A DNA stretch of 64,000 bases from a virus, in IMG/VR virus record IMGVR_UViG_3300025141_014429, positions 1-64,000 of that record, one strand, 5' to 3'. Both the position numbers and the translations under genes were made by a program. The notes beneath the pieces are model-generated. The model was given only the letters and a program-made list of their open reading frames with translations. It was not told the DNA's origin and made no database searches. Below are positions 33,821-53,523 of the stretch, piece by piece. The stretch's first letter is position 1. Every line of letters begins with the position of its first letter.

Positions 33821-34228
33821 TTAATGATATATCATCTTTCTATGTGGTTTGCTTTTAGCAAACCTTTTTATTATCTCACCAGCTCGAGCATTTGCTTGAT
33901 CTTCGTGAAAACCACCTGCGTCTCTAATGTTTCCACCTTCTAAGAGGCCTAACTCATCTTGCATCATATGTGTCATTTCATGTGCTATTGATCTTAACAC
34001 ATCGACAAAAGCTCTATCTTTTGCATAAATAATACACTTGTTTTCACCAATATGATAAGCAGCTGTTGTTGCGATACCATATGGCTTTCTTTTACTTACA
34101 ATTTGGATGTCATAGTTACCAGTAATCGGTAGGAAATCAGCACAGAAGTTACAAAATTCGCCCACTAAATGTACTTTATTCCTATCTTCACACATTGGAA
34201 GATCTTTACTTATTTTTAATTTACTCAT
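33821..34228 (-). CDS. Small HExxH metallopeptidase-like protein, 135 aa
   Basis: LRSIAHEMTHMMQDELGLLEGG carries HExxH, and GGFHEDQANARAGE about 25 residues later offers the third ligand, an arrangement of zinc metallopeptidases. Four Cys near the N-terminus (two in CNFCADF). No signal peptide. Converges on the M15 gene and is followed by the trypsin-like gene on the same strand, so they may be one unit. Confidence 0.68.
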   Translation of the reverse strand: MSKLKISKDLPMCEDRNKVHLVGEFCNFCADFLPITGNYDIQIVSKRKPYGIATTAAYHIGENKCIIYAKDRAFVDVLRSIAHEMTHMMQDELGLLEGGNIRDAGGFHEDQANARAGEIIKRFAKSKPHRKMIYH

Positions 34229-34243: not shown

Positions 34244-35092
34244 CTAATAAAGTATTATGCCTGTTTCTTTGTCAAAGTCAAGTAAAAACTTTCTTATTTC
34301 ATCAACATGAGGTCCTGCTGATATGTTTTGGAATGGTATGATTGATATAGATACTACACTGATTAGTTGTCCTTTCTTATTAAGAACTAAACTACCCGAA
34401 CTACCGTAAGTTGCAGGTATTGTATACATACAACCGTATCTAGAGTCACAACCACCGTAATTACCGTTAAAATGTAATCTAAAAGATTTTCCGTATATAG
34501 AGAGTGGAGAACTTACTGTAAATATATTTTCACCAATATCAGGCATTTTTTTAGCTAATTTAATGTTATCAAAATCAAATTTTCTTGTTTCTAACTCATT
34601 AATTCTAAAAGACAATAAACACAAATCAGACTTAGGATCGATTTTTTCTATATAGGCACTAGTTGCAGTATTTAAAAAATGAACAATGATTAACTTTTTA
34701 TATTCAATATATTTTCCATCCTCACCGGTAGCTAATAAATCTTCTTCAGTGTCAAAACAAAAGTGTGCTGCTGTTAGTGCAAACAGTATATCATCTTCTA
34801 TACCAATGACTCCGCCAGAAGCTGAAGAGAGACTAGCAGTTTCTACTTTATCATTATCACATTCTTCACCGACAACACAAAATTCTAGATACTTGTTTAT
34901 TAGAACATGTTTTTCAAAGTATACAAAATAATCATTATTGTAAGGTGTATCTTTTGACGTCTCGAGAGAAACTAAATTAGTTCCATTTTGAATATCTCCT
35001 TTCATAACTCTTATGCAAGAAAATACAAAAACAACAAAAATTAATGCTAACATCACTTCCCCCAATATCAAATATGTGTATCTTTTAAACAT
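34244..35092 (-). CDS. Membrane-anchored trypsin-like serine protease, 282 aa
   Basis: Start at 35092, because GGAGGCAAAT precedes it. An N-terminal TM anchor (YLILGEVMLALIFVVFVFSC) is followed by a trypsin fold: His in LTAAHFC (about residue 110), Asp in PKSDLCLL (about 156), Ser in GSSGSLVL (about 232). Paired Cys (CVVGEEC, CDSRYGC) fit an oxidising periplasm. Serine proteases of this type are rare in phages. It could degrade host envelope proteins or process an anti-phage factor. Active-site residues are all present. Confidence 0.82.
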   Translation of the reverse strand: MFKRYTYLILGEVMLALIFVVFVFSCIRVMKGDIQNGTNLVSLETSKDTPYNNDYFVYFEKHVLINKYLEFCVVGEECDNDKVETASLSSASGGVIGIEDDILFALTAAHFCFDTEEDLLATGEDGKYIEYKKLIIVHFLNTATSAYIEKIDPKSDLCLLSFRINELETRKFDFDNIKLAKKMPDIGENIFTVSSPLSIYGKSFRLHFNGNYGGCDSRYGCMYTIPATYGSSGSLVLNKKGQLISVVSISIIPFQNISAGPHVDEIRKFLLDFDKETGIILY

Positions 35093-35199
35093 ATTTGCCT
35101 CCATAATATTACTTAACTTTCTGTGGAGAAAATGACACTTTTTTTTATTAATTTAACTTTAGCAAACCCTACATGATAATTAATATCAGGAGTGAAATT

Positions 35200-35892: not shown

Positions 35893-35961
35893 ATAATATT
35901 ATTAATAAGATAATACAGAACTATAATCTACTTTTACAAATTAAATTTAAATTAATTTATT

Positions 35962-35991
35962 TTTGTAAATTCAGTATTTATGATTTAAATT
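35962..35991 (+). promoter_or_regulatory. Candidate promoter of the YeaH operon
   Basis: TTTGTAAA 35962-35969, 16 bp, TAAATT 35986-35991. A TATTTATG octamer lies between them at 35975. Weak -10. Confidence 0.4.
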
Positions 35992-36011: not shown

Positions 36012-37190
36012 ATGTCAATATTTAAAGAACATAAAACTATAGCAGATAGATCAGCTACAGATAGAAGAAGACATAAAAAGAAAATAGAAAAAGCTATCAA
36101 GGAAGGTATTCATGATATTATTGCTGAAGAGAATATTATTGGAAAAGATGGCAAGAAGAAAATAAAAATTCCTGTAAGAGGTATTAAAGAATTCAGGTTT
36201 ATATACAATGATGAGCCGGGAAATGGCCAAAAAAAGGTAGGATCAGCACAAGGTAAAAATATATCAAAAGGACAAAAAATATCTAGTGGTAAACAAAAGA
36301 AGGGTAAAGGTAAAAAAACAGATAAACCGGGTAATGAATCAGGTGATGAATACTATGAGGTAGAAATTTCTTTAGAAGAATTAGCAAATTATCTTTTTGA
36401 TGATTTAGACTTGCCTGAATTGGAAAAGAAGAATTTCACTAATATTGTTAGTGAAAAGTATAAAAGAAAAGGTTACAGACCTCAAGGTATAAGGCCTAGA
36501 TTATCAAAAAAAGAGACAATTAAAAATAAAATTCGTAGAAAGAAAAAAGCAATAAAGACAGGCACATATGATCCTGAGTCTGAAGAAAGATTCACATTTC
36601 ACGAAAGTGATCTAAAATACAAACACATTGCAGTTACACAAAAAGAAGTTACAAATGCTGTGATATTTTTTATCATGGATGTCTCAGGATCAATGGGGAA
36701 AACTAAGAAATTTCTTGCAAGAAGCTTTTTCTTCTTATTGTATCAATTCTTAAGACATAGATATCAAAAAGTAGAAATTGTTTTTATATCACACACAACA
36801 GAAGCATGGGAAGTTGATGAGGAACAATTCTTTTCTAGGGGCTCATCAGGAGGTACATTCATAAGTTCAGGAATAGAAAGATGCTTAGAGATAATAACAC
36901 AGCGATACTCGCCTGAAAATTGGAACATATATAGTTTTCACTGCAGTGATGGTGATAACTGGTCAGAAGATAATAAAAAAGCATTAGATTTAACTGATCA
37001 ACTAAAAGAAATGTGTCAATTATGTGCATATATCCAAATACTGGGTAGGAATAGTTTCGGTGCCGGAGACGGTAATAAGATGGCAGATGTATATGATCAA
37101 ATGCAGGATAAGAAATTTAAAGTTTCTAAAATAAACAATAAGAAAGATGTTTGGCCTGAATTTGCTAAGTTATTTGGAGGTAAATTATGA
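36012..37190 (+). CDS. yeaH: YeaH/YhbH-family (DUF444) VWA protein, 392 aa
   Basis: Basic N-terminal region, then a low-complexity Lys/Gly linker and a C-terminal von Willebrand A domain with MIDAS sequence IMDVSGSMG (about residue 224) and later FHCSDGDNW. Length and layout match YeaH (E. coli) and YhbH (Bacillus). In bacteria it acts with kinase YeaG/PrkA in stress and nitrogen-starvation responses and sporulation. Here it heads a three-gene set: yeaH, ycgB (4-base overlap), yeaG. Confidence 0.9.
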   Translation: MSIFKEHKTIADRSATDRRRHKKKIEKAIKEGIHDIIAEENIIGKDGKKKIKIPVRGIKEFRFIYNDEPGNGQKKVGSAQGKNISKGQKISSGKQKKGKGKKTDKPGNESGDEYYEVEISLEELANYLFDDLDLPELEKKNFTNIVSEKYKRKGYRPQGIRPRLSKKETIKNKIRRKKKAIKTGTYDPESEERFTFHESDLKYKHIAVTQKEVTNAVIFFIMDVSGSMGKTKKFLARSFFFLLYQFLRHRYQKVEIVFISHTTEAWEVDEEQFFSRGSSGGTFISSGIERCLEIITQRYSPENWNIYSFHCSDGDNWSEDNKKALDLTDQLKEMCQLCAYIQILGRNSFGAGDGNKMADVYDQMQDKKFKVSKINNKKDVWPEFAKLFGGKL

Positions 37191-38509
37191 CATGGAAGAT
37201 AAATGATCTTACTAGTTGGGATGATAAAATCATAGAAATTGCTAAAAAATACAATTTAGACTGGTATGATATCAACTATGAGATATGTGATTATTACGAA
37301 ATGATGGGTCATATGTCATATCACGGCATGCCAAGTCATTACAATCACTGGAGTTATGGAAAGTCATTCGAACAAACACGACAACTTTACAATTTAGGAG
37401 CACAAGGTCTACCATACGAATTAATTATAAATTCAGACCCATCTATAGCTTATCTCATGAGACAAAATGATTTATATCTTCAGATATTAATTATGGCACA
37501 CTGTATTGGTCATAGTGATTTTTTTAAAAATAATCGCTGTTTTCAGCATACAGATGCAAAAAATATTGTAGCTAAATTTAGAAATGCAAGAAATAGAATT
37601 CAAAAATATTCCGAAGATCCCAGTATAGGAATTGATGTTGTTGAAGAATTTATTGATTGTTTACATAGTATAAGATTCCAAACATGCAGACATAATATTC
37701 CACGTAAATCAAAAAATCAAATCAAACGTGATCTGATTAAAAAATACAACAAGGATAAAAACAACCAATTGATTAAGAAAGTATCCTTGAATAGATTAGA
37801 ATCATCACAACTATTAGAAGATGATCATGATTTGCTTTCATTTTTACTAGAATACGGAACACATTTTGAAGATTGGCAACTAGATATAATTAATATAGTT
37901 AGAGAAGACAGCATGTATTTTATTCCTCAAATAAAGACAAAGATACTTAATGAGGGATGGGCTTCTTTTTGGCATTATAAAATTCTTCATGAGTTGGAAT
38001 TGCCACAAGAATATCATATTCCTTTTTTGAAAATGCATAATGCAGTAGTCAGACCTCATATAGGTGGAATCAATCCTTATCATGTAGGCTTTTATCTTTT
38101 TCAAAAAATTGAAAAAGAAATGGGATTAGATGAATGTTTTCTAATACGAGAAGTGCACGACGATGAATCAGCGATAAGAATGTATTTAGATGAAGATGAT
38201 TTTAGAAAATTAAACTTGTTTACATATTCAAAAGATAAAAATAATGATACTTTTATCGATGAAGTATCAGATCATGATGACTGGAAAGTTGTTAGAAATA
38301 CACTGCTGCAGAACACCGGTGTTAATTCAATCCCAAGAATATATGCACATGATATAAAGAAAGATAAGTCATTGGTTCTTAAGCACGATCATGACGGAAG
38401 AGATCTAGACTTAGAATATGCTGATAAAGTTATTGAAAACGTTCGACATCTCTGGCCAGAAGGCGCAGTTCTTTTTACTGTAATAGAAGATGAGATATGG
38501 GAAATATAG
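37187..38509 (+). CDS. ycgB: SpoVR/YcgB-family protein, 440 aa
   Basis: Family signatures include YGMPSHYNHWSYGKSF near residue 50, MAHCIGHSDFF, LLNEGWASFWHYKILHELE-type text and NPYHVGFYLFQKIEKEMG. Full-length relative to YcgB/SpoVR (about 450-510 aa). Function in bacteria is still unclear, but the gene is nearly always beside yeaG/yeaH. ATGA overlap with yeaH shows translational coupling. Confidence 0.92.
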   Translation: MTWKINDLTSWDDKIIEIAKKYNLDWYDINYEICDYYEMMGHMSYHGMPSHYNHWSYGKSFEQTRQLYNLGAQGLPYELIINSDPSIAYLMRQNDLYLQILIMAHCIGHSDFFKNNRCFQHTDAKNIVAKFRNARNRIQKYSEDPSIGIDVVEEFIDCLHSIRFQTCRHNIPRKSKNQIKRDLIKKYNKDKNNQLIKKVSLNRLESSQLLEDDHDLLSFLLEYGTHFEDWQLDIINIVREDSMYFIPQIKTKILNEGWASFWHYKILHELELPQEYHIPFLKMHNAVVRPHIGGINPYHVGFYLFQKIEKEMGLDECFLIREVHDDESAIRMYLDEDDFRKLNLFTYSKDKNNDTFIDEVSDHDDWKVVRNTLLQNTGVNSIPRIYAHDIKKDKSLVLKHDHDGRDLDLEYADKVIENVRHLWPEGAVLFTVIEDEIWEI

Positions 38510-38576
38510 GGTAAACTTTTTTTAATATATAGTTATAATAGTATATGACAGCAATTAATTTCATAGGAAAATAAAA

Positions 38577-40511
38577 ATGGCCAACAAAGATTTTTTAAAA
38601 ATTATCAAAAAGCAGAGATCAAAAAGCAAGAAAAAGAAATTTCAAGGTACTCTTTTAGAGTATTTAGATATCATACAGGAAGATCCTAGCGCAGTTCAAT
38701 TAGCTCATAGAAGACTTTATGATGTAATTAATAATAAAGGTTGCAAAACAGTTGATATTGATGACGATGGTTACAGAGGCATCTTTAATGGTGATAAGAT
38801 TAGAACATATGATTATTTTAAAGAAGAATTCTTTGGAATGGAACTCATCATCAATAAGCTTATGAGGTATATGAAATCAGCTGCACTTAAAGGTGAAGAA
38901 TCTAGACAAGTACTTTTACTTATGGGGCCGGTAGGTGCAGGTAAATCAGCACTAACAGAGCATGTTAAAAGAGCACTTGAACTAGCAGAACCTGCATATC
39001 ATTTAGATGGTTGTCCAATTCGTGAAGAACCTCTTCATTTAATTCCTAGAAGTTTAAGACCTGAATTTGAAAAAATACTTGGTGTTAAAATTGAAGGTGA
39101 TCTATGCCCTATTTGTCGTCATAGGCTTATCAATGATTTTAATGGAGAGTATGAAAAATTTCCAGTTAAACAATCATCATTTTCACAAAGAGGACGAAGA
39201 GGTATTGCAACAGTGCCGCCTATGGATGCAAATTCACAGGATGTATCTGTTTTAATCGGAACTGAAGATATTAGTAAACTAGATCTTTATCCAGAAGATG
39301 ATCCTAGAGTATTATCGCTGAATGGTGCATTCAATGTGGGTAATAGAGGAATAGTAGAATTTGTTGAGGTATTTAAAAATGAAATTGAGTTTTTGCATAC
39401 TATGTTAACAGCAACTCAAGAAAAGCGTGTACCTTCGCCAGGTAAAAACGATATGATCTATTTTGATGGAGTCATATTATCCCATTGTAATGAAGCAGAG
39501 TGGAACAGATTTAAAGGTGAACACACGAATGAGGCTATTTTAGACAGGGTCATGAGAATAGAAGTACCTTACGTGCTAGAACTAGATCAAGAAATGAAAA
39601 TTTATGAAAAGATGATAAATAGATCTGATTTCAAAGGTGCACATATTGCACCGCATACTATTAAAATTGCATCGATGTTCTCAATAATGTCACGACTTAA
39701 AACGTCAAACAAGTGTGATATCCTTACTAAAATGAAAATATATAATGGTGAAGATATTATAGAAAAAGGAAAAGTAAGAAAAGTAGACATTAGAGACTTA
39801 AAAGATGAAGCAAGAAAAGAAGGGATGACGGGTATATCTACAAGATTTATTATGAAAGCCCTAGATGCAGCATTATCTGATTCTGACAGGAATATGATCA
39901 CTCCAATAAGTGTAATGGAAAGTCTAAGTAAACAAGTCAAAGAACAAATAATTGCTGAAGATGTTAAGGAAACTTACTTAGAAATAATCCAAAAGATAAT
40001 AAGGGAAGAATACCTTCGAATTCTAGAAACTGAAATAGCTAAAGCATTTATCACTGCTTACGAAGAACAAGCACAATCATTGTTTGAATCTTATCTTGAT
40101 AATGCAGAGTGTTACACAACAGGTGCTAACGTCAAGGATAAGATAACAAGAGAAGAACGTGAACCTGATGAAAAATTCATGAAGTCTATAGAAGAAATGA
40201 TAGGTGTTGTAGGTTCTGCACGTGACGGGTTCAGATCAGATGTTACTTCATATATGTTTTCTAAGATGAGAAGAGGAGAAACTATTGATTTTAAATCGTA
40301 TGGACCACTCAGAGAAGCAATCGAAGAATATATGATAATGTCAGTTAAAGATATATCTAGAATTGTAACTAGATCTAGATCAAGAGATGATGATCAAAAG
40401 AAAAAGTATAGTGAAATGGTCAGTACGTTGATTGAAGAGTATGGGTATGATGAATGGTCAGCTGAAGAAATACTGACTTATGCTTCAAATAACCTCTGGA
40501 GAGACTCATAA
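38577..40511 (+). CDS. yeaG: PrkA/YeaG serine kinase-AAA protein, 644 aa
   Basis: Walker A GPVGAGKS near residue 120 within a AAA+ domain, a central C-x2-C (LCPICRHR), and a C-terminal PrkA-type kinase domain. Length matches YeaG/PrkA (about 640 aa). In bacteria this kinase controls stress gene expression. A phage copy could keep starved hosts productive. Weak TATAAT at 38534 and GAAAATAAAA before the start; 67-base gap to ycgB. Confidence 0.92.
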   Translation: MANKDFLKIIKKQRSKSKKKKFQGTLLEYLDIIQEDPSAVQLAHRRLYDVINNKGCKTVDIDDDGYRGIFNGDKIRTYDYFKEEFFGMELIINKLMRYMKSAALKGEESRQVLLLMGPVGAGKSALTEHVKRALELAEPAYHLDGCPIREEPLHLIPRSLRPEFEKILGVKIEGDLCPICRHRLINDFNGEYEKFPVKQSSFSQRGRRGIATVPPMDANSQDVSVLIGTEDISKLDLYPEDDPRVLSLNGAFNVGNRGIVEFVEVFKNEIEFLHTMLTATQEKRVPSPGKNDMIYFDGVILSHCNEAEWNRFKGEHTNEAILDRVMRIEVPYVLELDQEMKIYEKMINRSDFKGAHIAPHTIKIASMFSIMSRLKTSNKCDILTKMKIYNGEDIIEKGKVRKVDIRDLKDEARKEGMTGISTRFIMKALDAALSDSDRNMITPISVMESLSKQVKEQIIAEDVKETYLEIIQKIIREEYLRILETEIAKAFITAYEEQAQSLFESYLDNAECYTTGANVKDKITREEREPDEKFMKSIEEMIGVVGSARDGFRSDVTSYMFSKMRRGETIDFKSYGPLREAIEEYMIMSVKDISRIVTRSRSRDDDQKKKYSEMVSTLIEEYGYDEWSAEEILTYASNNLWRDS

Positions 40512-40515
40512 AGTC

Positions 40516-41802
40516 ATGGACTTTATTGAACTTAAAGACAAGGAATTCCTAGAAAAATTACTTAGAGAGGAATACAAATCTTTTAAAAATTCTAGTGAAG
40601 ATGATACAGTTTATGAAAAAGGCTTTTTAGTAAAAGGAAAGTCTTTCAATTACTTAAATTCAAAAAGTGGAAATGAATCACAAAGTATATTTAGACCCCT
40701 GATAACAAATATATTTTCTGATTTAGAGTCGATTTATCCAGGACTAGGAGAACAATTTATTGATATTACTATGTCAGAAATTTCCAAACCCGGGTTTAAA
40801 GATGAGAAATTATCTGATATTGAAAACAGTATTAGTGAAATGATCAATGTAGTAAAGTCCAAGTCGATCAATATGTGTAAAAATGACTTTAGATATTTTG
40901 TTACAAATGAAATTTCTAAATGTAACAGAAAAATAATAAGAACAATTGTAGATAATATGAGAGTTTCTACAAGACTTTTTATTGAAGAAAGTCATATTGA
41001 TAAAAATATTATTCTTAAAACAAATAGTATAACATTTAATTTAGACTTTGATGGTGATTTTTTATTAAATAAACAAAAATGGGAAGCTAAAGACTATAAT
41101 TTTGTTATTATAGATGGTTTTATAGATACAGTAGGTGAAATATATCATCTGTTGCAAAATGCAAGTGAAAATAAAGAACCTTATGTAATATTTTGCAAAG
41201 GAATGAGCCCAGAGGTCAAAGATGTATTTTTGCAAAATTTAAAAAGAAGAACAATAAATGTTTTTCCTGTTTCGCTAGATATCAATGAATTGAATGTTAA
41301 TATTCTTATTGATTTTGCAATGCTTCATGGATCAGATGTTGTTAGTTCATTAAAAGGTGAAACAATATCAATAGCAATAAGGCGAAAACTTAAGAAAGGA
41401 CAAAAAATAAGCATAGATAAAAACGGAATTAATTTTAAACCATTAATATCCGACAACATTATTGCAAGGCATGTAGAATACTTAGAAAAAAGAAAAGCAG
41501 CGTCTAGTATAGAAGTAAATACAGAAATATTAGAAAAAAGAATAAAGATGTTATCAGCTGATAAAATTATATTAAAAATAGATAAAAGTGACAGTATTTT
41601 GGCAAGAGATGTAAAAAAGACTTTGTTCTTTCTTAAAACAGGATCTTCGGGAGTGTTTTACGGTAAGAAAAATCATATTACAGAATTAAAGATAATTCCA
41701 ACATACTCAATAATTCATCTACTTAAGAAAACTTTGTCATTCTTAAAAACAATTTACACTATTGATTGCGCAGTTATAATTAGAAAGAAAACTGGTCAAT
41801 AG
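40516..41802 (+). CDS. Divergent chaperonin-like (GroEL apical/intermediate) protein, 428 aa
   Basis: The stretch FVIIDGFIDTVGEIYHLLQN, then PYVIFCKGMSPEVKDVFLQNL, then INVFPVSLDINELNVNIL and FAMLHGSDVVSS, follows the GroEL apical domain in order: IxDKKIS..LLPxLE, PLLIIAEDVEGEALATL, AVKAPGF.RRKAML, and IATLTGGTVIS. The following IARHVEYLEKRKA...LEKRIKMLSADKIILKID...ARDVKKTLFF matches the descending intermediate helix. The N-terminal ATP-binding part is not recognisable. Start 40516 avoids overlapping yeaG. Confidence 0.6.
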   Translation: MDFIELKDKEFLEKLLREEYKSFKNSSEDDTVYEKGFLVKGKSFNYLNSKSGNESQSIFRPLITNIFSDLESIYPGLGEQFIDITMSEISKPGFKDEKLSDIENSISEMINVVKSKSINMCKNDFRYFVTNEISKCNRKIIRTIVDNMRVSTRLFIEESHIDKNIILKTNSITFNLDFDGDFLLNKQKWEAKDYNFVIIDGFIDTVGEIYHLLQNASENKEPYVIFCKGMSPEVKDVFLQNLKRRTINVFPVSLDINELNVNILIDFAMLHGSDVVSSLKGETISIAIRRKLKKGQKISIDKNGINFKPLISDNIIARHVEYLEKRKAASSIEVNTEILEKRIKMLSADKIILKIDKSDSILARDVKKTLFFLKTGSSGVFYGKKNHITELKIIPTYSIIHLLKKTLSFLKTIYTIDCAVIIRKKTGQ

Positions 41803-42041: not shown

Positions 42042-42533
42042 ATGACCAAGTACAAAGGAATTAAGCATCTTATTGAATGTCATTGTATTTTACCTCAATA
42101 CAAGCGGCGAGATCCGCCTTTTTATCATAAATTTACTGTGTACTCTAAAATAATAGATGGTTTAGTTTATGAAAAATATGCACAATGTAATAATTGTGAC
42201 ATTGTGCATAAAGTTTTTGATATATGCAAATCTGAAATAGTTGTAGGTAAAGAAGAGTTTAATACAGGTTTGACAATATCTGACATGTCTCTACAGTTGT
42301 CAGATAAATTAAGTATGCTACTTTCTAATAGTAACTGTGACTATGCAACATGGGAACATGTACTTGATATCATAGATGAAGAAAGGTGGGAAGAACCTGT
42401 TGTAATTAAAAGAGAAATAGTAGATGATAAGACAGTTGTAAAAATTTTAAAAATACAATCAGGTGAAAGAATTAAGATACAGACAAAAACTATAGAGGAT
42501 CAATTAGTAGGAGAGTACTATGAAAATAGGTAA
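42042..42533 (+). CDS. Cys-rich conserved phage-type protein, 163 aa
   Basis: N-terminal HLIECHCILPQYK and YAQCNNCDIVHKV supply CxC/CxxC pairs of a zinc ribbon. The remainder is alpha/beta and acidic. Similar zinc-ribbon proteins of unknown role are widespread in T4-like phages, but I cannot name the family. Overlaps the next gene by 14 bases. Confidence 0.68.
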   Translation: MTKYKGIKHLIECHCILPQYKRRDPPFYHKFTVYSKIIDGLVYEKYAQCNNCDIVHKVFDICKSEIVVGKEEFNTGLTISDMSLQLSDKLSMLLSNSNCDYATWEHVLDIIDEERWEEPVVIKREIVDDKTVVKILKIQSGERIKIQTKTIEDQLVGEYYENR

Positions 42534-43365: not shown

Positions 43366-44688
43366 TTGTCTAAACTAAAAAACCGAAAACTATTTGTAAT
43401 TGATACTAGTGTTCTACTTTATGATAAATCATCAATACACTCATTCCCAGGAAATGACTTAATCATACCATTAGTTGTTCTAGACGAATTAGACAGATTC
43501 AAAGACAAGAAAGGAATTGTTGGTGAAAATGCAAGATATATAAATCGCTATCTTGACAACCTTAGAAGTACAGGAAAGCTTTATCAAGGAATAGAGATAC
43601 AAAATAAACAAACAATTAGAGTTGAATTAGGTGGAATGAGAGATGTTCCTGTTGGATTGGATCCTAATCTTGCAGATAATAAAATCATTTCTGTTGCCAT
43701 GAATTTGCAAGGAAAAACAAAGCAAAAGGTTGTAGTTGTCACTAAAGATATAAATTTCAGAGTTAAATGTGATGCATTAAGTATACTTGCAGAAGACTAC
43801 TATAAAGACAAAATCATTGAAAGTTCAGAAGAAATATATCAAGGGCACATTGAAATAGACGTTGAAAGTAGTTTCATTGATGATGTCTACAGCGAAAAAA
43901 TTAAAAACATATCAGACATTGAAGAATTATGTCAAAAAAGAATTTATGAAAATCATTTTTTCTGTCTAAAGAATGGTAGTCAGTCTTTCATAGGAATGAA
44001 CAACGGAGGACAAGTAAAAAAAGCTCCTGAAAATTCTCAACTTTTAGAAGATTTCATGGGTATCAAGCCAAGAAATAGAGAACAGGTATATGCCTTAAAT
44101 CTACTATGTGATGAAAATATTCCTCTTGTTTCACTTGCCGGTCTTGCTGGGTCAGGAAAAACTTTCTTAACACTTATGGCTGCGATTGATTCACTTAATA
44201 AGAAAAAGTATGAGAGGATTGTAATAACAAGAAATATACAACCTGTAGGTAGAGACATTGGTTTTTTACCTGGAGACGTTAACGATAAGATGATGCCTTG
44301 GATGGCACCAATTATGGATAACTTTAGACATGGGCTAAAAGATAAGAACTTAATGTATTTTCATGCAATGAAAGATAAAGGACATATAGAAATAGCACCA
44401 CTTTCATTCATCAGAGGTAGAACATTTTCAAATACATTTCTCATACTTGACGAAGCTCAAAATGCATCCATTCATGAACTTAAGACAGTAATTACAAGAA
44501 TGGGAGAAAATAGCAAAATTGTGTTACTTGGAGACATTGATCAAATTGATACGCCTTATTTAGATTCGCTTTCAAACGGTCTAACAATTGTTGCAGAAAA
44601 GTTTAAAGAGAGTAATTTAGCAGGTCATGTCTTACTTAAAAAAGGTGAGAGATCTTCACTGGCAACAATAGCTTCGAAGATAATTTAG
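43366..44688 (+). CDS. PIN-PhoH (YlaK-type) protein, 440 aa, TTG start
   Basis: TTG start behind AATAAGGAGTTAAT. N-terminal PIN nuclease domain (LFVIDTSVLLYD, LDELDRFK, ending DNKIISVAMNL then VTKDINFRVK), then a PhoH ATPase with Walker A GLAGSGKT (residue about 262) and FLILDEAQNAS. PIN-PhoH proteins are predicted RNA-unwinding and cleaving enzymes; PhoH is common in marine phages, the PIN fusion less so. Likely a role in host RNA degradation. Confidence 0.9.
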   Translation: MSKLKNRKLFVIDTSVLLYDKSSIHSFPGNDLIIPLVVLDELDRFKDKKGIVGENARYINRYLDNLRSTGKLYQGIEIQNKQTIRVELGGMRDVPVGLDPNLADNKIISVAMNLQGKTKQKVVVVTKDINFRVKCDALSILAEDYYKDKIIESSEEIYQGHIEIDVESSFIDDVYSEKIKNISDIEELCQKRIYENHFFCLKNGSQSFIGMNNGGQVKKAPENSQLLEDFMGIKPRNREQVYALNLLCDENIPLVSLAGLAGSGKTFLTLMAAIDSLNKKKYERIVITRNIQPVGRDIGFLPGDVNDKMMPWMAPIMDNFRHGLKDKNLMYFHAMKDKGHIEIAPLSFIRGRTFSNTFLILDEAQNASIHELKTVITRMGENSKIVLLGDIDQIDTPYLDSLSNGLTIVAEKFKESNLAGHVLLKKGERSSLATIASKII

Positions 44689-45300: not shown

Positions 45301-46953
45301 ATGCCATCAAAAGATTTTACATCAAATCAAATTAGAGTAACAAAATTAATAGCTTCAGGAGGCCTTTCAGGTGGAGGAGCTCAGGCAGGAAACAATATAG
45401 GCATAGCTATTTATTCTGCATCTGATGCATCAGATGTTGCTGGAGGAATAGCTGACTCATCTATGCTTGATAAAGTTGGAAAAGATGTTTTTATGTTTAT
45501 ATCGGGTAGCACCACACCAAAAGGTAAGGATCACATAGAAGGATCAATAACTTTAATAGGGGGTGACCTTCATGTCTCTGGTGCATTGACAACAACAGGA
45601 ATTCTGTCAGGTGCTATACCTCCAGCAAGTATACTCGGCAGTGCTAATAGAATTCCTTTTTACAATAATGCTGCACCCCATAGTTTGACTAGTGATTCAC
45701 AGTTTAAATATTTTCATACAACAACAAATAAAGGGTTTTTGATGGGAGGCCCATCAAGTATTGTAGCTTCAAATGCTGCTAAATTATCTGTTGCCGCAGA
45801 ACTTGGTGTCGATTGCCAAGGACAGAATGATCCATCAAAATACGCACTAATGGTAAACGGGTTTAAAGACGATGGTGGTGGTGGTGTGAGCCTTGTTGAT
45901 ACAGAAGGTGGTGTAGGACTTGGGTTCTCTAGAAACTATACAGATGTAGGTGCCAGTATTGTTCATGATTCTTATGCCTCCTCAACAGGTGATTACTCAA
46001 GAGGAAGTCTTAAGTTCTTCAACAAAAATAACAACACCGACGGAGGAGTTCAGGCACAATGTTTTGAAATCGTAGGATCACACAATGGTTTAGTTAGAGC
46101 TACAGCAGGTCTTTCCATTGATGGTGGACTTATGGGTGGAATGTTTAATGTTGGTGACCCTACTATGGCTTCTGTAGGCTCAGGCACACGTCATCTTGAA
46201 TTTGACAAAAGAACAATGCAAGCTAAGGGTGATGAATGGGTACCTATGGTAGAAACGCATACAGGGGTTAAAACACTAAATACACTTTATATACATCCTT
46301 ACGGTGGTCATGTTTCAATAGGATATGACGGGATTACTAGACGTCCTTTACCTAATAGCATGCTAAGAGTAGCATCAGCTTCAATTTATGAAACTTCAGT
46401 AAATACTAATAGATATGTAGCTGACTTTAGGCATACAACTTGGAATGGAGACTCATCAGGTTCACCTAATCCAGGTGATGCTCAACATGGTGGTATAAGA
46501 ATTCAATGTGGTCAATATGCTGCCAGCGCAGATGACTCTGCATTGTGGATTAATTTCTTTGATGGAGATGGAACAGGTGGTTCACTAGGTAGAATTGCTA
46601 TGAAGAATGGAGTTGGCGCATTCTTGTGGAATAGTTCAGATGAGAGGATTAAGGCAGATATAAAACCTACATCTGTTAATGCGCTCAGTTTATTAAATAA
46701 GATAAATCTAAAATCCTTTAAAAAAGTACATAAGTCAGGAATTACTGGTTCTGCAAACCCAATTGGATTCGTTGCGCAAGATGTTGAAAGTTCAATTCCA
46801 GAATTAGTATCTGATTATAATGACGAAGCTTATGATTTCAAAGTCAAAAGTCTTGGATATTCTGGATTTGTTCCATATCTTGTAAAGGCTGTTCAAGAAT
46901 TAAGTGCAGAAAACGATGCTTTAAAAGCTAGGATTGAAGCTTTAGAAAATTAA
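45301..46953 (+). CDS. Tail fibre with S74 intramolecular chaperone, 550 aa
   Basis: Gly/Ser-rich N-terminal shaft with beta repeats; the C-terminal ~105 residues, starting at NSSDERIKADIKPTS (about residue 443), are a Peptidase_S74 chaperone. The SSDERIK motif supplies the cleavage Ser and Lys. A long coiled-coil helix (QELSAENDALKARIEALEN) closes the trimer. The chaperone folds the fibre and is cut off by itself. Predicted receptor-binding fibre. Confidence 0.88.
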   Translation: MPSKDFTSNQIRVTKLIASGGLSGGGAQAGNNIGIAIYSASDASDVAGGIADSSMLDKVGKDVFMFISGSTTPKGKDHIEGSITLIGGDLHVSGALTTTGILSGAIPPASILGSANRIPFYNNAAPHSLTSDSQFKYFHTTTNKGFLMGGPSSIVASNAAKLSVAAELGVDCQGQNDPSKYALMVNGFKDDGGGGVSLVDTEGGVGLGFSRNYTDVGASIVHDSYASSTGDYSRGSLKFFNKNNNTDGGVQAQCFEIVGSHNGLVRATAGLSIDGGLMGGMFNVGDPTMASVGSGTRHLEFDKRTMQAKGDEWVPMVETHTGVKTLNTLYIHPYGGHVSIGYDGITRRPLPNSMLRVASASIYETSVNTNRYVADFRHTTWNGDSSGSPNPGDAQHGGIRIQCGQYAASADDSALWINFFDGDGTGGSLGRIAMKNGVGAFLWNSSDERIKADIKPTSVNALSLLNKINLKSFKKVHKSGITGSANPIGFVAQDVESSIPELVSDYNDEAYDFKVKSLGYSGFVPYLVKAVQELSAENDALKARIEALEN

Positions 46954-47030
46954 GAATCTATGTAATAATTAAAAAATAGTTTTATCTCTTGGTCAATAAG
47001 CTGTATTATTGGCACAAAAGGAGATAAAAT

Positions 47031-48965
47031 ATGTTAACTAGTCCATTTGACACAGGAAGTGTTAGTAGGTTTGATTCAAACAAATTTAATCAAGCACAAG
47101 TTATTTTTGTTGCAGATATGTTTGTCGATGAATATGTTGGAGGTGCTGAACTTACAACTCAAGCACTTATAGATTCTGCTACAACTCCAACTTACTGGGT
47201 AAAAGCTAATCAGATTACACCTGAATTAATCCAAGCAGGTGTAGGTAAACATTGGGTATTCTGCAATTACACATCAATGCAACAACAACTTATTCCTGTG
47301 GTTATTGCCAATCTAAGTTATTCAATCATAGAATACGATTATAAATTTTGCAAGTATCGATCAATTGAGAAGCATGAAGTTGCCGAAGGAAAACCTTGTG
47401 ACTGTCATGATGAAATGCAAGGAAAATTAACGTCAGCATTCTTTCACGGTGCTGACAATGTTTTCTGGATGTCACAGAAGCAGTCAGATTTGTACGTGGA
47501 ACGTTTTCCTTTTCTTTCCGGTGGTAATAATCATATTTTATCTTCTGTGTTCTCTATTAACACTCTAGATAAGCTAAAAGAACTAAGAAGTAAATATCGC
47601 GGCAAGAAAAACGACAAGTGGTTAATAATTGGCTCTACAAGCTGGATTAAGGGTGCAAGTGAGTCAGAAGAGACTTGCAAAATAAATAATTTAGAATACG
47701 AAACAGTCTGGGGTTTACCTTATGAGGAAATGCTAGAAAAATTGGCACAATCAAAAGGACATGTTTACTCTCCTCCTGGTGGAGATACATGCCCAAGAGT
47801 CGTTATAGAGGCTAAACTTTTAGGCTGTGATCTTTTAATTAACGATAATGTCCAGCACAAATATGAAGACTGGTTCAATAGCAGGGTTGAGGTAATTGAT
47901 GAGTATCTAAGAGAGTCACCAGATAGATTCTGGAAAGTTATTGAAAGTCAAATCAATCATGTACCTACTATTAGTGGCTATACAACAACACGTAATTGTA
48001 TTTCTCAAAAATATCCCTTTAAGCAATGTATTGAGTCACTTTTAGGATTTTGTGATCAGGTTGTTGTTGTAGATGGCGGTTCCACAGATGGGACGTGGGA
48101 GGCTCTGGAGGAACTTTCTGTCGCAAATGATAGAATTATCATTGCACAAAACAAAAGGGACTGGGACCACCCTCGCTTCGCTGTATTTGATGGTTTACAA
48201 AAGGCTTACGCTAGAAGTTTATGTACTGGAGAATGGTGTTGGCAAATGGACTCAGATGAGGTTGTTCATGAGAAAGATTATGGCAAAGTAAAGGAAGTTA
48301 TTAAAAGATTACCTAAAGCAACAGATCTCATTGCATTACCTGTTATTGAATACTGGGGAGGCCCAGAGAAAGTTCGCATAGATGTTAATCCTTGGAAATG
48401 GAGGCTGAGTAGAAATAGAAAATATATTACACATGGAATACCTAAACAACTTAGAGTCATTGATGAAGAAGATCAATTATATGCTAGGCCAGGAACTGAC
48501 GGATGTGATTATATTGATACAGAGACACATGAAATAATACCTTGCACAACATTTTACACAAAAGAAGTGCACCAGCTTAGAGAAAATGCATTTAAAAATG
48601 GTAATCAAGGTGTAAATGGTTACGAAAATTGGTATAATCAAATAGTAAACGTTCTGCCTAGTGTTTATCATTATTCTTGGTTTGACATAGAGAGGAAAAT
48701 CAAGACTTATCGTGGATACTGGACAAAGCATTGGCAAAGTCTATATAATATTAAACAAGAAGATACTCCTGAAAACAACATGTTTTTTAAAAAGAAATGG
48801 TCTGATGTAGCAGATGAAGAAATAGAACAGTTATCAAAAGAGCTAGGAGAGAAAATGGGTGGTTGGATATTTCATGAGCCCATTAACTTTAATAAACCTA
48901 CACCTTGGGTAAAAATAAATAGAGGTCAACCTGAGTTGATGAAAAGTTGGAATGATAAGAAATAA
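47031..48965 (+). CDS. Bifunctional glycosyltransferase (GT4-like + GT2), 644 aa
   Basis: Residues about 1-300 resemble a GT-B/GT4 transferase (GSTSWIKGASESEE, then SPPGGDTCPRVVIEAKLLGC, the acidic UDP-sugar-site pattern). Residues about 310-560 form a GT2-type GT-A domain (VVVVDGGSTDGTWEAL and QMDSDEVVH, the DxD-like motif). One chain thus adds two sugars in sequence. It starts a block of more than 15 co-directional glycan genes with one-base overlaps. Confidence 0.8.
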   Translation: MLTSPFDTGSVSRFDSNKFNQAQVIFVADMFVDEYVGGAELTTQALIDSATTPTYWVKANQITPELIQAGVGKHWVFCNYTSMQQQLIPVVIANLSYSIIEYDYKFCKYRSIEKHEVAEGKPCDCHDEMQGKLTSAFFHGADNVFWMSQKQSDLYVERFPFLSGGNNHILSSVFSINTLDKLKELRSKYRGKKNDKWLIIGSTSWIKGASESEETCKINNLEYETVWGLPYEEMLEKLAQSKGHVYSPPGGDTCPRVVIEAKLLGCDLLINDNVQHKYEDWFNSRVEVIDEYLRESPDRFWKVIESQINHVPTISGYTTTRNCISQKYPFKQCIESLLGFCDQVVVVDGGSTDGTWEALEELSVANDRIIIAQNKRDWDHPRFAVFDGLQKAYARSLCTGEWCWQMDSDEVVHEKDYGKVKEVIKRLPKATDLIALPVIEYWGGPEKVRIDVNPWKWRLSRNRKYITHGIPKQLRVIDEEDQLYARPGTDGCDYIDTETHEIIPCTTFYTKEVHQLRENAFKNGNQGVNGYENWYNQIVNVLPSVYHYSWFDIERKIKTYRGYWTKHWQSLYNIKQEDTPENNMFFKKKWSDVADEEIEQLSKELGEKMGGWIFHEPINFNKPTPWVKINRGQPELMKSWNDKK

Positions 48966-49672
48966 TGACACCTAATAAAGTAATTTTCATAACGCCAATG
49001 TACAACTCAGAAGAGTACTTACCAGAATTAGTGTCGTCAATTATATCTCAAAAAAATCAAAATTGGGAACATATAATAGTTGATGACATGTCATCTGATG
49101 AGAGTTATGAAAAAGCTTTAGAATTAACCAAAGAATATTCTAGATTTAAAGTAATAAAAAGTAATGAAAAGAAATATCCGATTAGAATTACTATTGAAGA
49201 AAGTAAAAAATATCAAGATGAAAATGTAATAATAGCGATGATTGATTCTGACGACGCACTAATGAATAATAATACAGTAGATATTATATTAAATCATTAT
49301 AGTGATGAAGAATTAGATACAGCTTGGACTGCACATTACTGGGATGTTCACGGCATGAATATATCAGGAGATTTATATCCTGATGAAGATCCTTACGAAG
49401 TAGATTGGACAACATCACACCTTAAAACTTTTAGATCATCCATTGTCAAAAATTTAAGTAATAAAAACTTTAAAGATGATCAAGGTAAATGGTTTAAATC
49501 TGCTTCTGACCAGGTAGTGTACTTACCGCTTTTGTACATTAGTAGGAAGCGAAAATTCATAAGCGATATCTGTTACCTGTATAGGGTTAATTTAAAAGGT
49601 GAGACTAATACAAATACGCATAATCAACAATCTACTGTTGATTTTATTAGAAAGCGAGGTTTTATAAAATGA
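48965..49672 (+). CDS. GT2 glycosyltransferase, 235 aa
   Basis: FITPMYNSEEYLPELVSSI then IIVDDMSSDESYEKA and AMIDSDDAL (DxD-like) are the hallmarks of family GT2. Single base overlap with the upstream gene. Donor and acceptor unknown. Confidence 0.85.
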   Translation: MTPNKVIFITPMYNSEEYLPELVSSIISQKNQNWEHIIVDDMSSDESYEKALELTKEYSRFKVIKSNEKKYPIRITIEESKKYQDENVIIAMIDSDDALMNNNTVDIILNHYSDEELDTAWTAHYWDVHGMNISGDLYPDEDPYEVDWTTSHLKTFRSSIVKNLSNKNFKDDQGKWFKSASDQVVYLPLLYISRKRKFISDICYLYRVNLKGETNTNTHNQQSTVDFIRKRGFIK

Positions 49673-50037
49673 AAGATAATGTAAAGCATATAAGTGAGTG
49701 TAAAAAAACTGACAAACCTTGGGGTTATGAAGTACTATGGGCTCAGACAGATGAATATGTTGCAAAATTAATGCAAATTAGAGCCGGTCATAGAATGAGT
49801 CTACAATATCACGAAAAGAAAGAAGAGACTTTATACGTAATGTCTGGATTGTTAATTGTTTGGCAAAGTGAAGATGATGAAAAATGGATTGCACTCCGCC
49901 CCGGTGACATATATCACGTCAAACCCGGTCAAATTCATAGGTTTGGTGCAGACGCTACTGGTGATACAATGCTAATGGAAGTCAGTACAAATTTTTTAGA
50001 TGATGTTTTTAGAATAAAGGATGATTATGAAAGATAA
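49669..50037 (+). CDS. Cupin sugar isomerase-like protein, 122 aa
   Basis: KPWGYEVLWAQTD and SLQYHEKKEETLYVMSG and RPGDIYHVKPGQIHRFGA match the C-terminal cupin of type II mannose-6-phosphate isomerase/ManC. Likely isomerises Man-6-P, feeding GDP-mannose for the Gmd/Fcl pathway at the right end. The domain is stand-alone here. ATGA overlap with the GT2 gene. Confidence 0.75.
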   Translation: MKDNVKHISECKKTDKPWGYEVLWAQTDEYVAKLMQIRAGHRMSLQYHEKKEETLYVMSGLLIVWQSEDDEKWIALRPGDIYHVKPGQIHRFGADATGDTMLMEVSTNFLDDVFRIKDDYER

Positions 50038-50854
50038 AAATGAAAGATATTTTAAGGTAGGCAAGGTAAATATTGATTTAGATAATTTCTTTAAGACTGA
50101 CTGGGATCAGGTTAAAGTTAATGCATTGATTGACTTATTATACTTTCCTTTAAGAATATTAAATTCTTTGGAAGGAGTTGAGATAGACAAAGAGTCTAAT
50201 CAAAAAATATATCAAATATTTGAAAGAGAGATTAATCATAAATCATATTATGAACTTTCACAAAGCTGGAAAGCTTTGTTTGGAGAGGGTTCTTTTTTAC
50301 CTTATCATTTAGACGGCTGTATTTTAGATGGTGATGAAGAATCTTTTGACATTCCTGTTTTTGAGCATATTTTAAAAAATAACGATATCAAATCTATTAT
50401 TGATGTAGGCTGTGGCTCCGGACATGTAACAAATTATTTCAAAGAAAAAGGTAAAATATGCACTGGCGTTGATGGCTCACCAAGAGCAATAAAATATGCC
50501 AGGAATAAATTTAAAAACATAGAATTTATAGAACATGACTTTGCAAAAGGTAAAAACAATATTGTAATTAGTCATGATATAGCAATATCAATAGAATTTT
50601 TAGAGCATGTCGAAGAAAAGTACCAAGAAAATTATATGAATATATTCGAAAAATCAAAAAAGTGTTATGTTACTTTTGCTCCGGAAGGACAACCCGGTTA
50701 TCATCATGTCAATTGCAGAAATCAAGAATACTGGATTAATGTATTTGACAAATATAATTTTGATTTTTGCGAAGAAGAAACTGACTTAGTTAGATCTATT
50801 GCTAGCGGCTACTATTTTAAGAATAATGGTTTAGTTTTTAAAAAAAGAGAATAA
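50027..50854 (+). CDS. SAM-dependent methyltransferase, 275 aa
   Basis: Start at 50027 gives good spacing to AAAGG. IIDVGCGSGHVTNYFKEKG is a class I SAM-binding motif; EHDFAKGKNNIVIS and SIEFLEHVEEKYQ follow. Probably O-methylates a sugar or a glycan intermediate. Overlaps the cupin gene by 11 bases. Confidence 0.82.
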   Translation: MKDKNERYFKVGKVNIDLDNFFKTDWDQVKVNALIDLLYFPLRILNSLEGVEIDKESNQKIYQIFEREINHKSYYELSQSWKALFGEGSFLPYHLDGCILDGDEESFDIPVFEHILKNNDIKSIIDVGCGSGHVTNYFKEKGKICTGVDGSPRAIKYARNKFKNIEFIEHDFAKGKNNIVISHDIAISIEFLEHVEEKYQENYMNIFEKSKKCYVTFAPEGQPGYHHVNCRNQEYWINVFDKYNFDFCEEETDLVRSIASGYYFKNNGLVFKKRE

Positions 50855-50857
50855 CAA

Positions 50858-51703
50858 ATGAAAATTGTTACTAATGATTATCGCTGCGGAACTAGTTCTT
50901 CTATACTGGACTATAATATAGTAGATGTAGTAATTGTTTCTGAAGAAAATTACGATCATGTATATGATATAGAAGATGATCTTTTTTTTGTAGGGCATGA
51001 TTTTTTATTCTACTTGTGGGACACAGAAGAAAAGGTGCAAAAATGGATATCACACAAGCACAGAAAAGCAGTTTGGTGCTTTGAAAGAATTGATGCAATA
51101 GTACCACAGTGGAAAGCAAAATCTGAATACAGTATATCCCTTCTTAAGCGGTTTGTAGACCAAATATACGTTTGTGACGAAGATGATGCAAATACTTATG
51201 GAGACTGGTTTCCACAGTGGGCCAGTAGAAAGTTTTTTGATAACAGAGATAAAAAGATAAACAATGATAAAATACTATTTTCCGGACAAGCAGGTAAACC
51301 TGAGTATGCATCAAGGAATAAACTTTTAAACGATATCATTGCAGACCGAGATCTCAAAAACAAAATTAATATTACTAATTTTTCTAGAGACTATTCTTGG
51401 GATGATTATTGCAATAATTTACTTTCTTATGAAAAAATATTAAATCCCGTAGGGATTCTAAGAGGTTTTAATACTAGAACTTACGAAGTATTATATTCAG
51501 GAAGACTTTTACTACAACAAACCTATGGTAATTACGCTAAGCATTCTAGCATAGTTGAATCATGTCCAAATGTTGTTTTGTTCCAAACTTTACCTGAATT
51601 AAAATCAAAAATTAAATTATTAAAAACTGAAGATAGTACAAAATTTTTTGAAAATAACAACATATATGCACGCTTCAAGTCTATAGGGTGTGAAATAAAA
51701 TAA
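50858..51703 (+). CDS. Putative GT-B glycosyltransferase, 281 aa
   Basis: The C-terminal part (ILNPVGILRGFNTRTYEVLYSGRLLLQQTYG) is the pattern of GT1/GT4 CgeB-like transferases. The N-terminal half has ISLLKRFVDQIYVCDEDDANT. Family assignment from this motif is reasonable but not certain. Substrate unknown. Confidence 0.68.
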   Translation: MKIVTNDYRCGTSSSILDYNIVDVVIVSEENYDHVYDIEDDLFFVGHDFLFYLWDTEEKVQKWISHKHRKAVWCFERIDAIVPQWKAKSEYSISLLKRFVDQIYVCDEDDANTYGDWFPQWASRKFFDNRDKKINNDKILFSGQAGKPEYASRNKLLNDIIADRDLKNKINITNFSRDYSWDDYCNNLLSYEKILNPVGILRGFNTRTYEVLYSGRLLLQQTYGNYAKHSSIVESCPNVVLFQTLPELKSKIKLLKTEDSTKFFENNNIYARFKSIGCEIK

Positions 51704-51712
51704 GAGAAAATA

Positions 51713-52630
51713 ATGCAAATTACAGAGCAACAACTCAAAGATCAGTGGAAAAATTTATGTACAAACTTTCCACTAGTTTGTGGAATAAACACATACAATA
51801 ATGAGCTAACTATATATGCTTGTTTACAGCAAGCAGTTAAAAACTTTCACAAAGTAATAGTATTTGATGACGGTAGTACAGATAGAACTTTTACGTTTAT
51901 AAATAAATTTATTGAAGATTTTGAGCCTAAAAATTTAATAGTAATGTCTGTTGATCATATAGATCCCTGGCCTGATCAAAAAATTGAAAAAGATCATGGT
52001 CCTGATGAGGGTGTTCTTATGAAGAAGACTCATGCAAAATCAAAGGCAAAAGCTCATAGCATAATAAAACAAAATTTTCCTAATGCTTTGTATATTTCTT
52101 TAGAGTCAGATGTTATTTGTAATGACAACATAACAAGTAGAATCTATGATAGAATATCTAAGTGGGACGATCCCTTAAGGGATGTTGAATTTTTTAATGT
52201 TATGATGGCAATTGATAGAGAGTATTTTAGAGCAATATCATCATCAGAAGAAAAATGGATACCGTTAAAAGGTATAAAGCAAAGAGGCCCTTGTGACCAT
52301 CCAGGAGACTGGACACTCGCTTGTTTTTGGAATGGAGGTATAACTAGCATACAACCTGATCCAAGTTTTCCTTACGGTGCATGTACATTTCCGTGGTCAG
52401 CAAAAAATCAAACACAGAAAAAAGGACAGGACACAGATAATCCTTATGGTTTCCACATGTACAATTATAATAACAAATGTCTAGATGCAGATGTATCTAA
52501 GTCTTTAAAATTTACTTATAAAGAACTTAATGATCCTTTTATAGATATAAATACTTTAAAAAATGTTTGGTTTCCTAAAGAGTTGAAAATAAATAAAGAA
52601 GGAAAAAGATATGTGGAGGTTTTGCAATGA
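51713..52630 (+). CDS. GT2-like glycosyltransferase, 305 aa
   Basis: TYNNELTIYACLQQAVKNF then VIVFDDGSTDRTFTFINKF and a SLESDV metal-type motif mark GT-A/GT2. The protein is followed by a 4-base overlap with an NAD-dependent epimerase gene. Confidence 0.8.
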   Translation: MQITEQQLKDQWKNLCTNFPLVCGINTYNNELTIYACLQQAVKNFHKVIVFDDGSTDRTFTFINKFIEDFEPKNLIVMSVDHIDPWPDQKIEKDHGPDEGVLMKKTHAKSKAKAHSIIKQNFPNALYISLESDVICNDNITSRIYDRISKWDDPLRDVEFFNVMMAIDREYFRAISSSEEKWIPLKGIKQRGPCDHPGDWTLACFWNGGITSIQPDPSFPYGACTFPWSAKNQTQKKGQDTDNPYGFHMYNYNNKCLDADVSKSLKFTYKELNDPFIDINTLKNVWFPKELKINKEGKRYVEVLQ

Positions 52631-53523
52631 GGTATGTTGTAACAGGAGGAAGGGGTTTTATAGGATCACATTTTGTTGAAAAATTGCTCAAATTAGGACA
52701 CAGTGTAGTTGATATAGATAAAATGACTTATGCTGCTTCTAAAGAATTACCTTGGGACGATCATTCAAATTATACACATCTTAAAGAAGATATATGTAGT
52801 ATTAATCACATACCTCCATGTGATTATTTAGTTAATTTTGCTGCAGAGTCTCACGTTGATAATTCAATACATGAATCAAAAACATTTTTAAAAAGTAATA
52901 CAGAAGGTGTACACAATATACTGGAGTTACTAAGAGGAAAAGTATATGAAAGACCTCTTTTCATTCATATAAGCACAGACGAAGTCTATGGTGATACAAT
53001 CAGTGGAACTTTTAAAGAAAGTGATGTTTTAAACCCGAGCAATCCTTACGCTGCCTCAAAGGCAGCTGCAGAAATGTTTGTTCTTTCTCATGGTAGAACT
53101 TATGGAATAGATTATATTATCACTAGATCTGGCAACAATTATGGTGAGAGGCAATATATTGAAAAATTAATAGCAAATACAATCGACTGTATGAAACTAG
53201 GCAGAAAAATACCTATTCATGGTGATGGTATGTATATTAGAGATTGGATATACGTCAAGGATAATGTAGATGCTATACTAAAAATAATAGAGTCTGGCCA
53301 AAAAAATCAAACATTTAATATTGCTTCTCACAATGAAATGACCAATTTAGAAGTTGTAAGAACAGTTGTTTCTTGGTTTACTGATAAAGACTACAAAGAG
53401 TTTATCAACTTTGTCCCAAATAGATTAGGTCAAGATGTTAGATATTCAATATGCAATAAAAAAGTTAAAAAATTAGGTTGGATACCGAAGCACACAAAAG
53501 GAATAAAGAGGTTTATAAAATGA
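52627..53523 (+). CDS. dTDP-glucose 4,6-dehydratase-like SDR, 298 aa
   Basis: VVTGGRGFIGSHFVEKLLK (GxxGxxG), DYLVNFAAESHVDNSI, STDEVYGDT and YAASKAA (YxxxK) are those of RmlB/dTDP-glucose 4,6-dehydratase. With the FdtA/QdtA-like isomerase (56995) and the DegT aminotransferase (55971), it would make dTDP-3-amino-3,6-dideoxyhexose. The RmlA step is not in the window. Confidence 0.85.
   Translation: MRYVVTGGRGFIGSHFVEKLLKLGHSVVDIDKMTYAASKELPWDDHSNYTHLKEDICSINHIPPCDYLVNFAAESHVDNSIHESKTFLKSNTEGVHNILELLRGKVYERPLFIHISTDEVYGDTISGTFKESDVLNPSNPYAASKAAAEMFVLSHGRTYGIDYIITRSGNNYGERQYIEKLIANTIDCMKLGRKIPIHGDGMYIRDWIYVKDNVDAILKIIESGQKNQTFNIASHNEMTNLEVVRTVVSWFTDKDYKEFINFVPNRLGQDVRYSICNKKVKKLGWIPKHTKGIKRFIK

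Follow-up and report, generated by a model that had tools for sequence, protein, structure and literature searches.

The 64,000-nucleotide stretch of viral DNA analyzed here (the window), which corresponds to positions 1–64,000 of the 123,028-base IMG/VR record IMGVR_UViG_3300025141_014429, encodes side by side a DUF444/YeaH-type VWA protein, a SpoVR/YcgB protein, and a PrkA/YeaG AAA+ protein. The comparative analysis revealed that this triad is a conserved phage cassette and not a one-off, that it belongs to giant phages of seas and lakes, a widespread group without cultured members, and that it is mostly followed by a gene for a divergent GroEL-like protein in which the ATP-binding motifs have been lost. 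With a probability of roughly 0.5, we read the cassette as a phage-owned PrkA–YeaH–SpoVR module that goes back to a single capture and would work as an ATP-driven protein-remodelling machine.

The triad as a conserved cassette of giant phages

A first reading of the DNA made without database searches (hereafter, the sequence-only reading) had described the three genes as full length and adjacent, and both points were borne out: the open reading frames (ORFs) span exactly 36012–40511, with the SpoVR start overlapping the VWA stop by 4 nt and a gap of 67 nt between the SpoVR end and the PrkA start (Table 1). All Pfam matches within the triad exceeded the curated cut-offs and covered nearly the full profile length. 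The VWA protein matched PF04285 at 378 bits against a cut-off of 27, SpoVR matched PF04293 at 391 bits (also above its cut-off, profile positions 2–404 of 407), and PrkA reached 474.7 bits with AAA_PrkA and 259.8 bits with the PrkA C-terminal domain. The window PrkA also aligned with a solved homologue (PDB 9xip; E 5.3e-94, residues 18–638), and sequence searches returned no PDB homologue for the VWA protein. The description of PrkA as a kinase held only in part, since membership in the PrkA family is clear whereas "kinase" is a label: a 2026 Bacillus anthracis study, which also cites a protease claim for B. subtilis PrkA, reports that kinase and protease activities are negligible (PMC13001217).

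Motif integrity was evaluated on those alignment columns in which the bacterial sequences share at least 97% identity. The window VWA protein kept 34 of 36 such columns, including the metal ion-dependent adhesion site (MIDAS), whose residues D223, S225, S227, T282, and D313 were present in all 38 phage representatives. Similarly, the window PrkA kept 69 of 71 columns, including Walker A, and the Walker A/AAA residues G117, P118, G122, K123, and S124 were found in 38/38 representatives. SpoVR exhibited H105, H109, E153, N255, E256, H263, H284, N296, Y298, and D326 in every row of a 58-row alignment of phage and bacterial sequences, and the window protein retains all polar residues that are invariant across it. 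Active-site loss was thus looked for on closer alignment and did not occur, in agreement with the intact motifs that the sequence-only reading had described. The ratio of nonsynonymous to synonymous substitution rates (dN/dS) between the window and its nearest relative, locus L003, was ~0.02 for VWA, ~0.03 for SpoVR, and ~0.06 for PrkA, so that the triad genes are under strong purifying selection; PrkA was the best conserved of nine genes compared, with a median identity to the window of 70% versus 30–57%. Within the phage group, a zinc-type motif at residues ~146–180 of PrkA occurs in two forms, the cysteine-containing GDLCPICR (the window and L024) and the cysteine-free GDISPVAR (L051 and L057), and this split mirrors one among the other PrkA proteins aligned.

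Scans of IMG/VR yielded 64 loci with a PrkA seed, 80 with a SpoVR seed (80 of 243 confirmed), and 36 with a VWA seed. In one IMG/VR set, all three genes were present in 140 of 145 loci, always in the order VWA–SpoVR–PrkA; the remaining five comprised two pieces of the window and three loci cut by locus ends. Distinct loci were defined with length limits of 300 (VWA), 380 (SpoVR), and 560 (PrkA) aa, and the merging of identical PrkA sequences reduced 168 loci to 100, giving 101 together with the window. The order VWA–SpoVR–PrkA was found in 101/101 of these phage loci, whereas 58/58 bacterial loci with three full-length genes exhibited PrkA–VWA–SpoVR, which extends to the whole set the departure from the bacterial yeaG–yeaH–ycgB order that had been noticed in the window. 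The sequence-only reading had also considered that such triads could already be common in this phage group with a known structural function; common they are, and no structural function is known for them.

The record of the window bears the viral hallmarks of T4-like phages, namely genes for a gp23-type capsid protein and a large terminase, and the nearest annotated relatives of the capsid protein belong to distant T4-like phages, including those of Rhodothermus, Flavobacterium, and Microcystis. Triad-bearing contigs reached up to 298 kb, and 19 of the 20 large ones encoded gp23 capsid and terminase (in contigs G001 and G011, gp23-type capsid genes stand in tandem, two in each). The triad was located 63–113 kb upstream of the capsid gene in 16 of 19 contigs (distances taken by hand), and in G006, G007, and G012 it lay elsewhere. 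Approached from the capsid side, SpoVR was detected in only 1 of 15 capsid-bearing contigs, mostly the longest ones, picked from 80 loci, which at face value speaks against universality of the triad in the capsid clade. The other 14 are fragments extending at most ~70 kb upstream of the capsid gene, and their capsid proteins interleave with, or equal, those of triad contigs; universality is therefore unproven. Additionally, a 306-kb contig in the bacterial metagenome-assembled genome (MAG) Methylococcaceae TMED69 (NHDW01000006.1, locus L191) has the triad in phage order, the chaperonin-like gene, and the same neighbors, and is almost certainly a mis-binned phage of this group.

Table 1. Genes of the cassette and its conserved downstream neighbors in the window
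Feature	Position	Strand	Evidence
DUF444/YeaH-type VWA protein, 392 aa	36012..37190	+	Pfam DUF444 E 7.7e-113
SpoVR/YcgB protein, 440 aa	37187..38509	+	Pfam SpoVR E 6.7e-117, SpoVR_C E 3.4e-08
PrkA/YeaG AAA+ protein with PrkA C-terminal domain, 644 aa	38577..40511	+	AAA_PrkA E 2.4e-142, PrkA E 4.1e-77
GroEL/Cpn60-like protein, divergent and lacking the ATP-site motifs, 428 aa	40516..41802	+	Profile, fold, synteny
Conserved 163-aa protein, 3' of the cassette	42042..42533	+	No Pfam family
PhoH-like protein, syntenic with the cassette	43366..44688	+	phrog_2765 E 9.6e-103

The chaperonin-like fourth gene and the fold of SpoVR

The gene adjoining PrkA, which the sequence-only reading had not covered, is listed as an ORF at 40480–41802 and has a likely start at 40516, 4 nt past the PrkA stop. 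Its product had no Pfam match, and Cpn60_TCP1 was detected in 0 of 58 family members at E 0.01. The family alignment, which included 58 of the 66 extracted ORFs, produced a profile that matched PDB GroEL with an E of 2.2e-34 over GroEL residues 117–410. The AlphaFold2 model of the window protein (predicted local distance difference test, pLDDT, 88.9) retrieved the GroEL fold in Foldseek with an E of 1.4e-21 and template-modelling (TM) scores of up to 0.78, the highest being those with co-chaperonin-bound forms. Compared with GroEL/Cpn60, including the GroEL of the same phages, the fold and the apical/intermediate sequence are alike, but the protein is shorter (428 versus ~530–545 aa) and only 13–16% identical to the phages' own GroEL. 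A string similar to each of the ATP motifs DGTTT and GGG occurs in one of the 58 short-family members, and the aligned columns do not match; both motifs are kept in 8/8 full-length GroELs of the same phages. Profile, model, and motif comparison agree in depicting a divergent GroEL-like protein that lacks the ATP-binding motifs.

A GroEL-like gene was located directly downstream of PrkA in 84 of the 101 loci and upstream of the triad in 6 more, and no chaperonin match was found beside the triads in the bacterial loci examined. The short family was present in all 20 large contigs, 14 of which had a Cpn60_TCP1 match elsewhere (13 full-length, one cut by the contig end). In G006, G007, and G012, the short gene resides elsewhere and a full-length Cpn60 is located ~3.5–7 kb from the triad (G007 measured by hand). 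The family match at 217454–218689 of contig G010, which harbors locus L004, has one in-frame TAG, which may stem from a sequencing error, recoding, or decay.

SpoVR carries the motifs H105-x-x-G-H109 and N255-E256-G257, whose two histidines and glutamate are candidate metal ligands. For its confident AlphaFold2 model (pLDDT 92), VIA-align 2 gave Z scores of up to 11.3 over ~180 residues; among the 28 matches that reached a Z of 5, 25 were named zinc metallopeptidases or ACE-family proteins. The second motif lies in an NEGWA context, which presumably resembles the third-ligand motif of zinc aminopeptidases. Sequence searches of the PDB retrieved no SpoVR homologue with the single protein, and the best profile match (E 0.27) was unrelated. 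We infer from the modelled fold and the conserved residues that SpoVR would have a zinc-peptidase-like fold with altered chemistry.

Origin and genomic surroundings

The gene trees included 24 of the 38 phage representatives for PrkA and 18 of 38 for the other genes, plus L191. The jumbo phages formed one clade in each of the three trees, with a support of 100 in the Shimodaira–Hasegawa-like approximate likelihood-ratio test (SH-aLRT). This clade sits with Clostridia-type sequences in the PrkA and SpoVR trees, and in an unresolved fork beside them in the VWA tree. The nearest bacterial PrkA proteins represent a distinct type found in Clostridium, Syntrophomonas, Flammeovirga, a Bdellovibrionales MAG, and others. 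These Clostridia-type triads, which retain the bacterial order and have no chaperonin match in the loci examined, contain the closest relatives of all three genes (PrkA 52–61%, VWA 41–50%, and SpoVR 36–46% identity), and PrkA of other bacteria showed 33–40% identity among the matches listed. Given the shared clade and the same bacterial neighbors across trees, a single joint acquisition of the three genes from one type of bacterial operon is most likely, with the order permuted afterwards; the gene-by-gene phylogenies that had been proposed to trace joint acquisition agree with this. Locus L193, Lutibacter sp. B2 by title, grouped its triad with Clostridia-type Bacillota in all three trees, making the label or the contig suspect.

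Other phages carry the module as well. The Thermus phages phiYS40, phiLo, MN1, and Lalka8 have the whole triad in the same VWA–SpoVR–PrkA order as the jumbo group; their PrkA is distant (~30–33% identity), they have no chaperonin match, and phiYS40 has an extra gene before PrkA. Among jumbo phages, the mahaphages LR745206, LR756511, and LR756504 exhibit the bacterial order PrkA–VWA–SpoVR, and a fourth, LR756502, has a SpoVR match far from the other two genes. The PrkA tree placed three of the four mahaphages among gammaproteobacteria, and the Thermus phages grouped with Chloroflexi/Bacilli types. A single PrkA clade of jumbo and Thermus phages was rejected by the approximately unbiased (AU) test (p-AU 3e-81, to be taken with caution given the long Thermus-phage branches), which was run on 8 of the 38 phage representatives, with L185, L188, L189, and others left out. 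By the separate tree positions and the AU rejection, phages captured the module at least three times, and the identical permuted order appears in two lineages, its descent from one common phage ancestor being rejected for PrkA.

With respect to the bacterial modules prkA–yhbH–spoVR and yeaG–yeaH–ycgB, the phage cassette consists of the same three Pfam families, adjacent and on one strand, with key residues kept, but differs in gene order, in the GroEL-like fourth gene, and in being carried by phages. Earlier records already include single triad genes in phages, among them SpoVR of marine viruses, as well as annotated whole triads; in the Ralstonia jumbo phage RsoM2USA, for instance, SpoVR is reported as ORF28 and PrkA as ORF30 (PMC8504454). 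Our search of the open-access literature (subscription journals and preprints lay outside it) found no account of the phage triad as a conserved cassette, of its permuted order, of a triad-linked degenerate chaperonin, or of a zincin-like SpoVR, and both the conserved cassette and the degenerate chaperonin appear to be new among the papers searched.

Downstream of the cassette, the gene for the 163-aa protein and the PhoH-like gene each lie within 7 kb in 17 of the 19 loci with room, the latter at a median of 3.5 kb. Upstream, a divergent pair on the minus strand encodes a trypsin-like protease whose N-terminus contains a membrane-type segment (34244–35104; Pfam Trypsin_2, 5.1e-06) and, beside it, a small protein in which the HExxH motif reads HEMTH (33821–34228), which recur upstream of the triad in 38/76 and 35/76 loci with room, respectively. 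An inverted repeat lies upstream of VWA at ~35930–35980 of the window, around TTTACAAAT ... TTTGTAAAT, and 22 of 99 loci have the 8-mer TTGTAAAT ahead of the VWA gene, where it is perhaps a common regulatory site. Farther away, positions 45301–63104 encode a tail fibre that bears an endosialidase-type chaperone domain and, after it, an extended series of glycan and sugar-nucleotide genes, including epimerases, an aminotransferase, methyltransferases, and glycosyltransferases. The G+C content drops from ~0.40 to ~0.32 near 20 kb (1–20000 versus 20000–64000), and the portion before ~20 kb contains many short genes and one tRNA-Arg.

Possible function and significance

Pairs of AAA+ and VWA proteins are known to act in remodelling, and the PrkA/VWA combination recalls them. 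The presence of such a pair, joined by a third protein that is predicted to be zincin-like and a fourth that derives from a chaperonin, makes ATP-driven protein remodelling the best-supported reading of the cassette, and the gene context favors protein handling at least as much as dormancy. In the proposed mechanism, PrkA would be the AAA+ motor, and the VWA protein would serve as a client-binding adaptor that depends on metal, by analogy with other AAA+/VWA pairs. SpoVR, as a putative metalloprotein with a zinc-peptidase-like fold, would act on or hold the delivered client. The GroEL-derived protein, with client-binding and hinge domains kept, would probably be a passive holdase, ring, or adaptor, a passive role being suggested by the absence of the ATP-binding motifs, and the true phage GroEL encoded elsewhere would work beside it. 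Virion or replication proteins of the phage, or proteins of the host, would be the clients, presumably during the infection of slow-growing hosts.

Several observations weigh against this reading. Foldseek found no significant PDB match for the SpoVR model (best E 0.19), so that the likeness to metallopeptidases comes from a second-look aligner, and the HExxH glutamate is absent from 58/58 SpoVR sequences (position 106 is C, V, or A), which makes ordinary peptidase chemistry doubtful. Of the 11 loci without a chaperonin, nine were short of flank and two (L166 and L174) had enough of it. Because the phage loci are related, the 84 of 101 loci with an adjoining GroEL-like gene are not independent events. 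A chaperonin was detectable in 0 of the nine records of triad-bearing Thermus phages and mahaphages, which rules out the pairing of triad and chaperonin as a general rule and indicates that it is not required for triad function. Finally, the late-promoter motif TATAAATA is about as frequent in the window as expected by chance (10 versus 10.2 occurrences), and the same holds for the capsid region and for the sequence preceding VWA or the capsid gene; we consequently draw no conclusion on the time of cassette expression.

The alternative that comes next in our estimate, possible though not probable, is control of the host state, as the sequence-only reading had supposed: the triad would intervene in the starvation or stationary-phase programme as the host's own YeaG/YeaH/YcgB do, braking metabolism or sustaining a starved host until the infection is completed. 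Escherichia coli YeaG and YeaH are reported to be needed for survival of nitrogen starvation (PMC4664914) and to behave as a "metabolic brake" under that condition (PMC10954441), and a marine oxygen minimum zone survey reports spoVR as the most abundant viral sporulation auxiliary metabolic gene and argues for host-state manipulation (PMC8940887). The stress-type phoH gene in the vicinity of the cassette and the uptake of the triad by at least three separate phage lineages are consistent with this role. Against it, no sequence evidence links the phage proteins to a host regulator, the closest relatives of the triad belong to a Clostridia-type operon with no role known to us, and the chaperonin-like fourth gene is left unexplained.

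Protein remodelling may also be extended to a four-part machine, a version that we consider doubtful. Here, a chaperonin ring stripped of its ATPase would provide a client chamber or docking platform for PrkA, the VWA adaptor, and the zincin-like SpoVR, and the assembly would remodel or inactivate specific proteins with the true phage GroEL as a partner.

A role in virion morphogenesis, in which the module would fold, process, or remodel capsid or tail proteins, draws on the position of the triad in two Thermus phages, flanked by portal/minor head genes and TerL in Lalka8 and near TerL in phiYS40, as well as on the coupling of the triad with chaperonins in the jumbo group. In this T4-like group, however, 63–113 kb separate the triad and the capsid gene in 16 of the 19 contigs, and the triad resides beside tail fibre, PhoH, and glycan genes, outside the head cluster, which renders this role unlikely. 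AAA+ and VWA proteins are also found in bacterial conflict systems, and the module could in principle disable host defence proteins or exclude rival phages, but the PADLOC models matched none of seven cassette and neighbor proteins, and we deem counter-defence or superinfection exclusion very unlikely. That the triad is passive cargo without function in the phage is hardly credible, since beyond its bacterial origin nothing speaks for it and the low dN/dS, the fixed order, and the conservation of PrkA all disfavor it.

The PrkA–YeaH–SpoVR module is widespread in bacteria, and its biochemistry is unsettled, with kinase, protease, and neither all having been claimed. Since phages took it up on at least three occasions and one group turned it into a fixed cassette, the activity of the module must be useful on its own during a single infection. 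The degenerate chaperonin and the predicted zinc-peptidase-like SpoVR provide concrete protein-remodelling hypotheses in place of the "stress gene" label, and the four-part machine, if true, would have no described bacterial counterpart and would be used by a large group of marine phages during infection. Cultured triad-bearing Thermus phages make the question testable now, and the phage cassette offers a self-contained system for learning what the module does.

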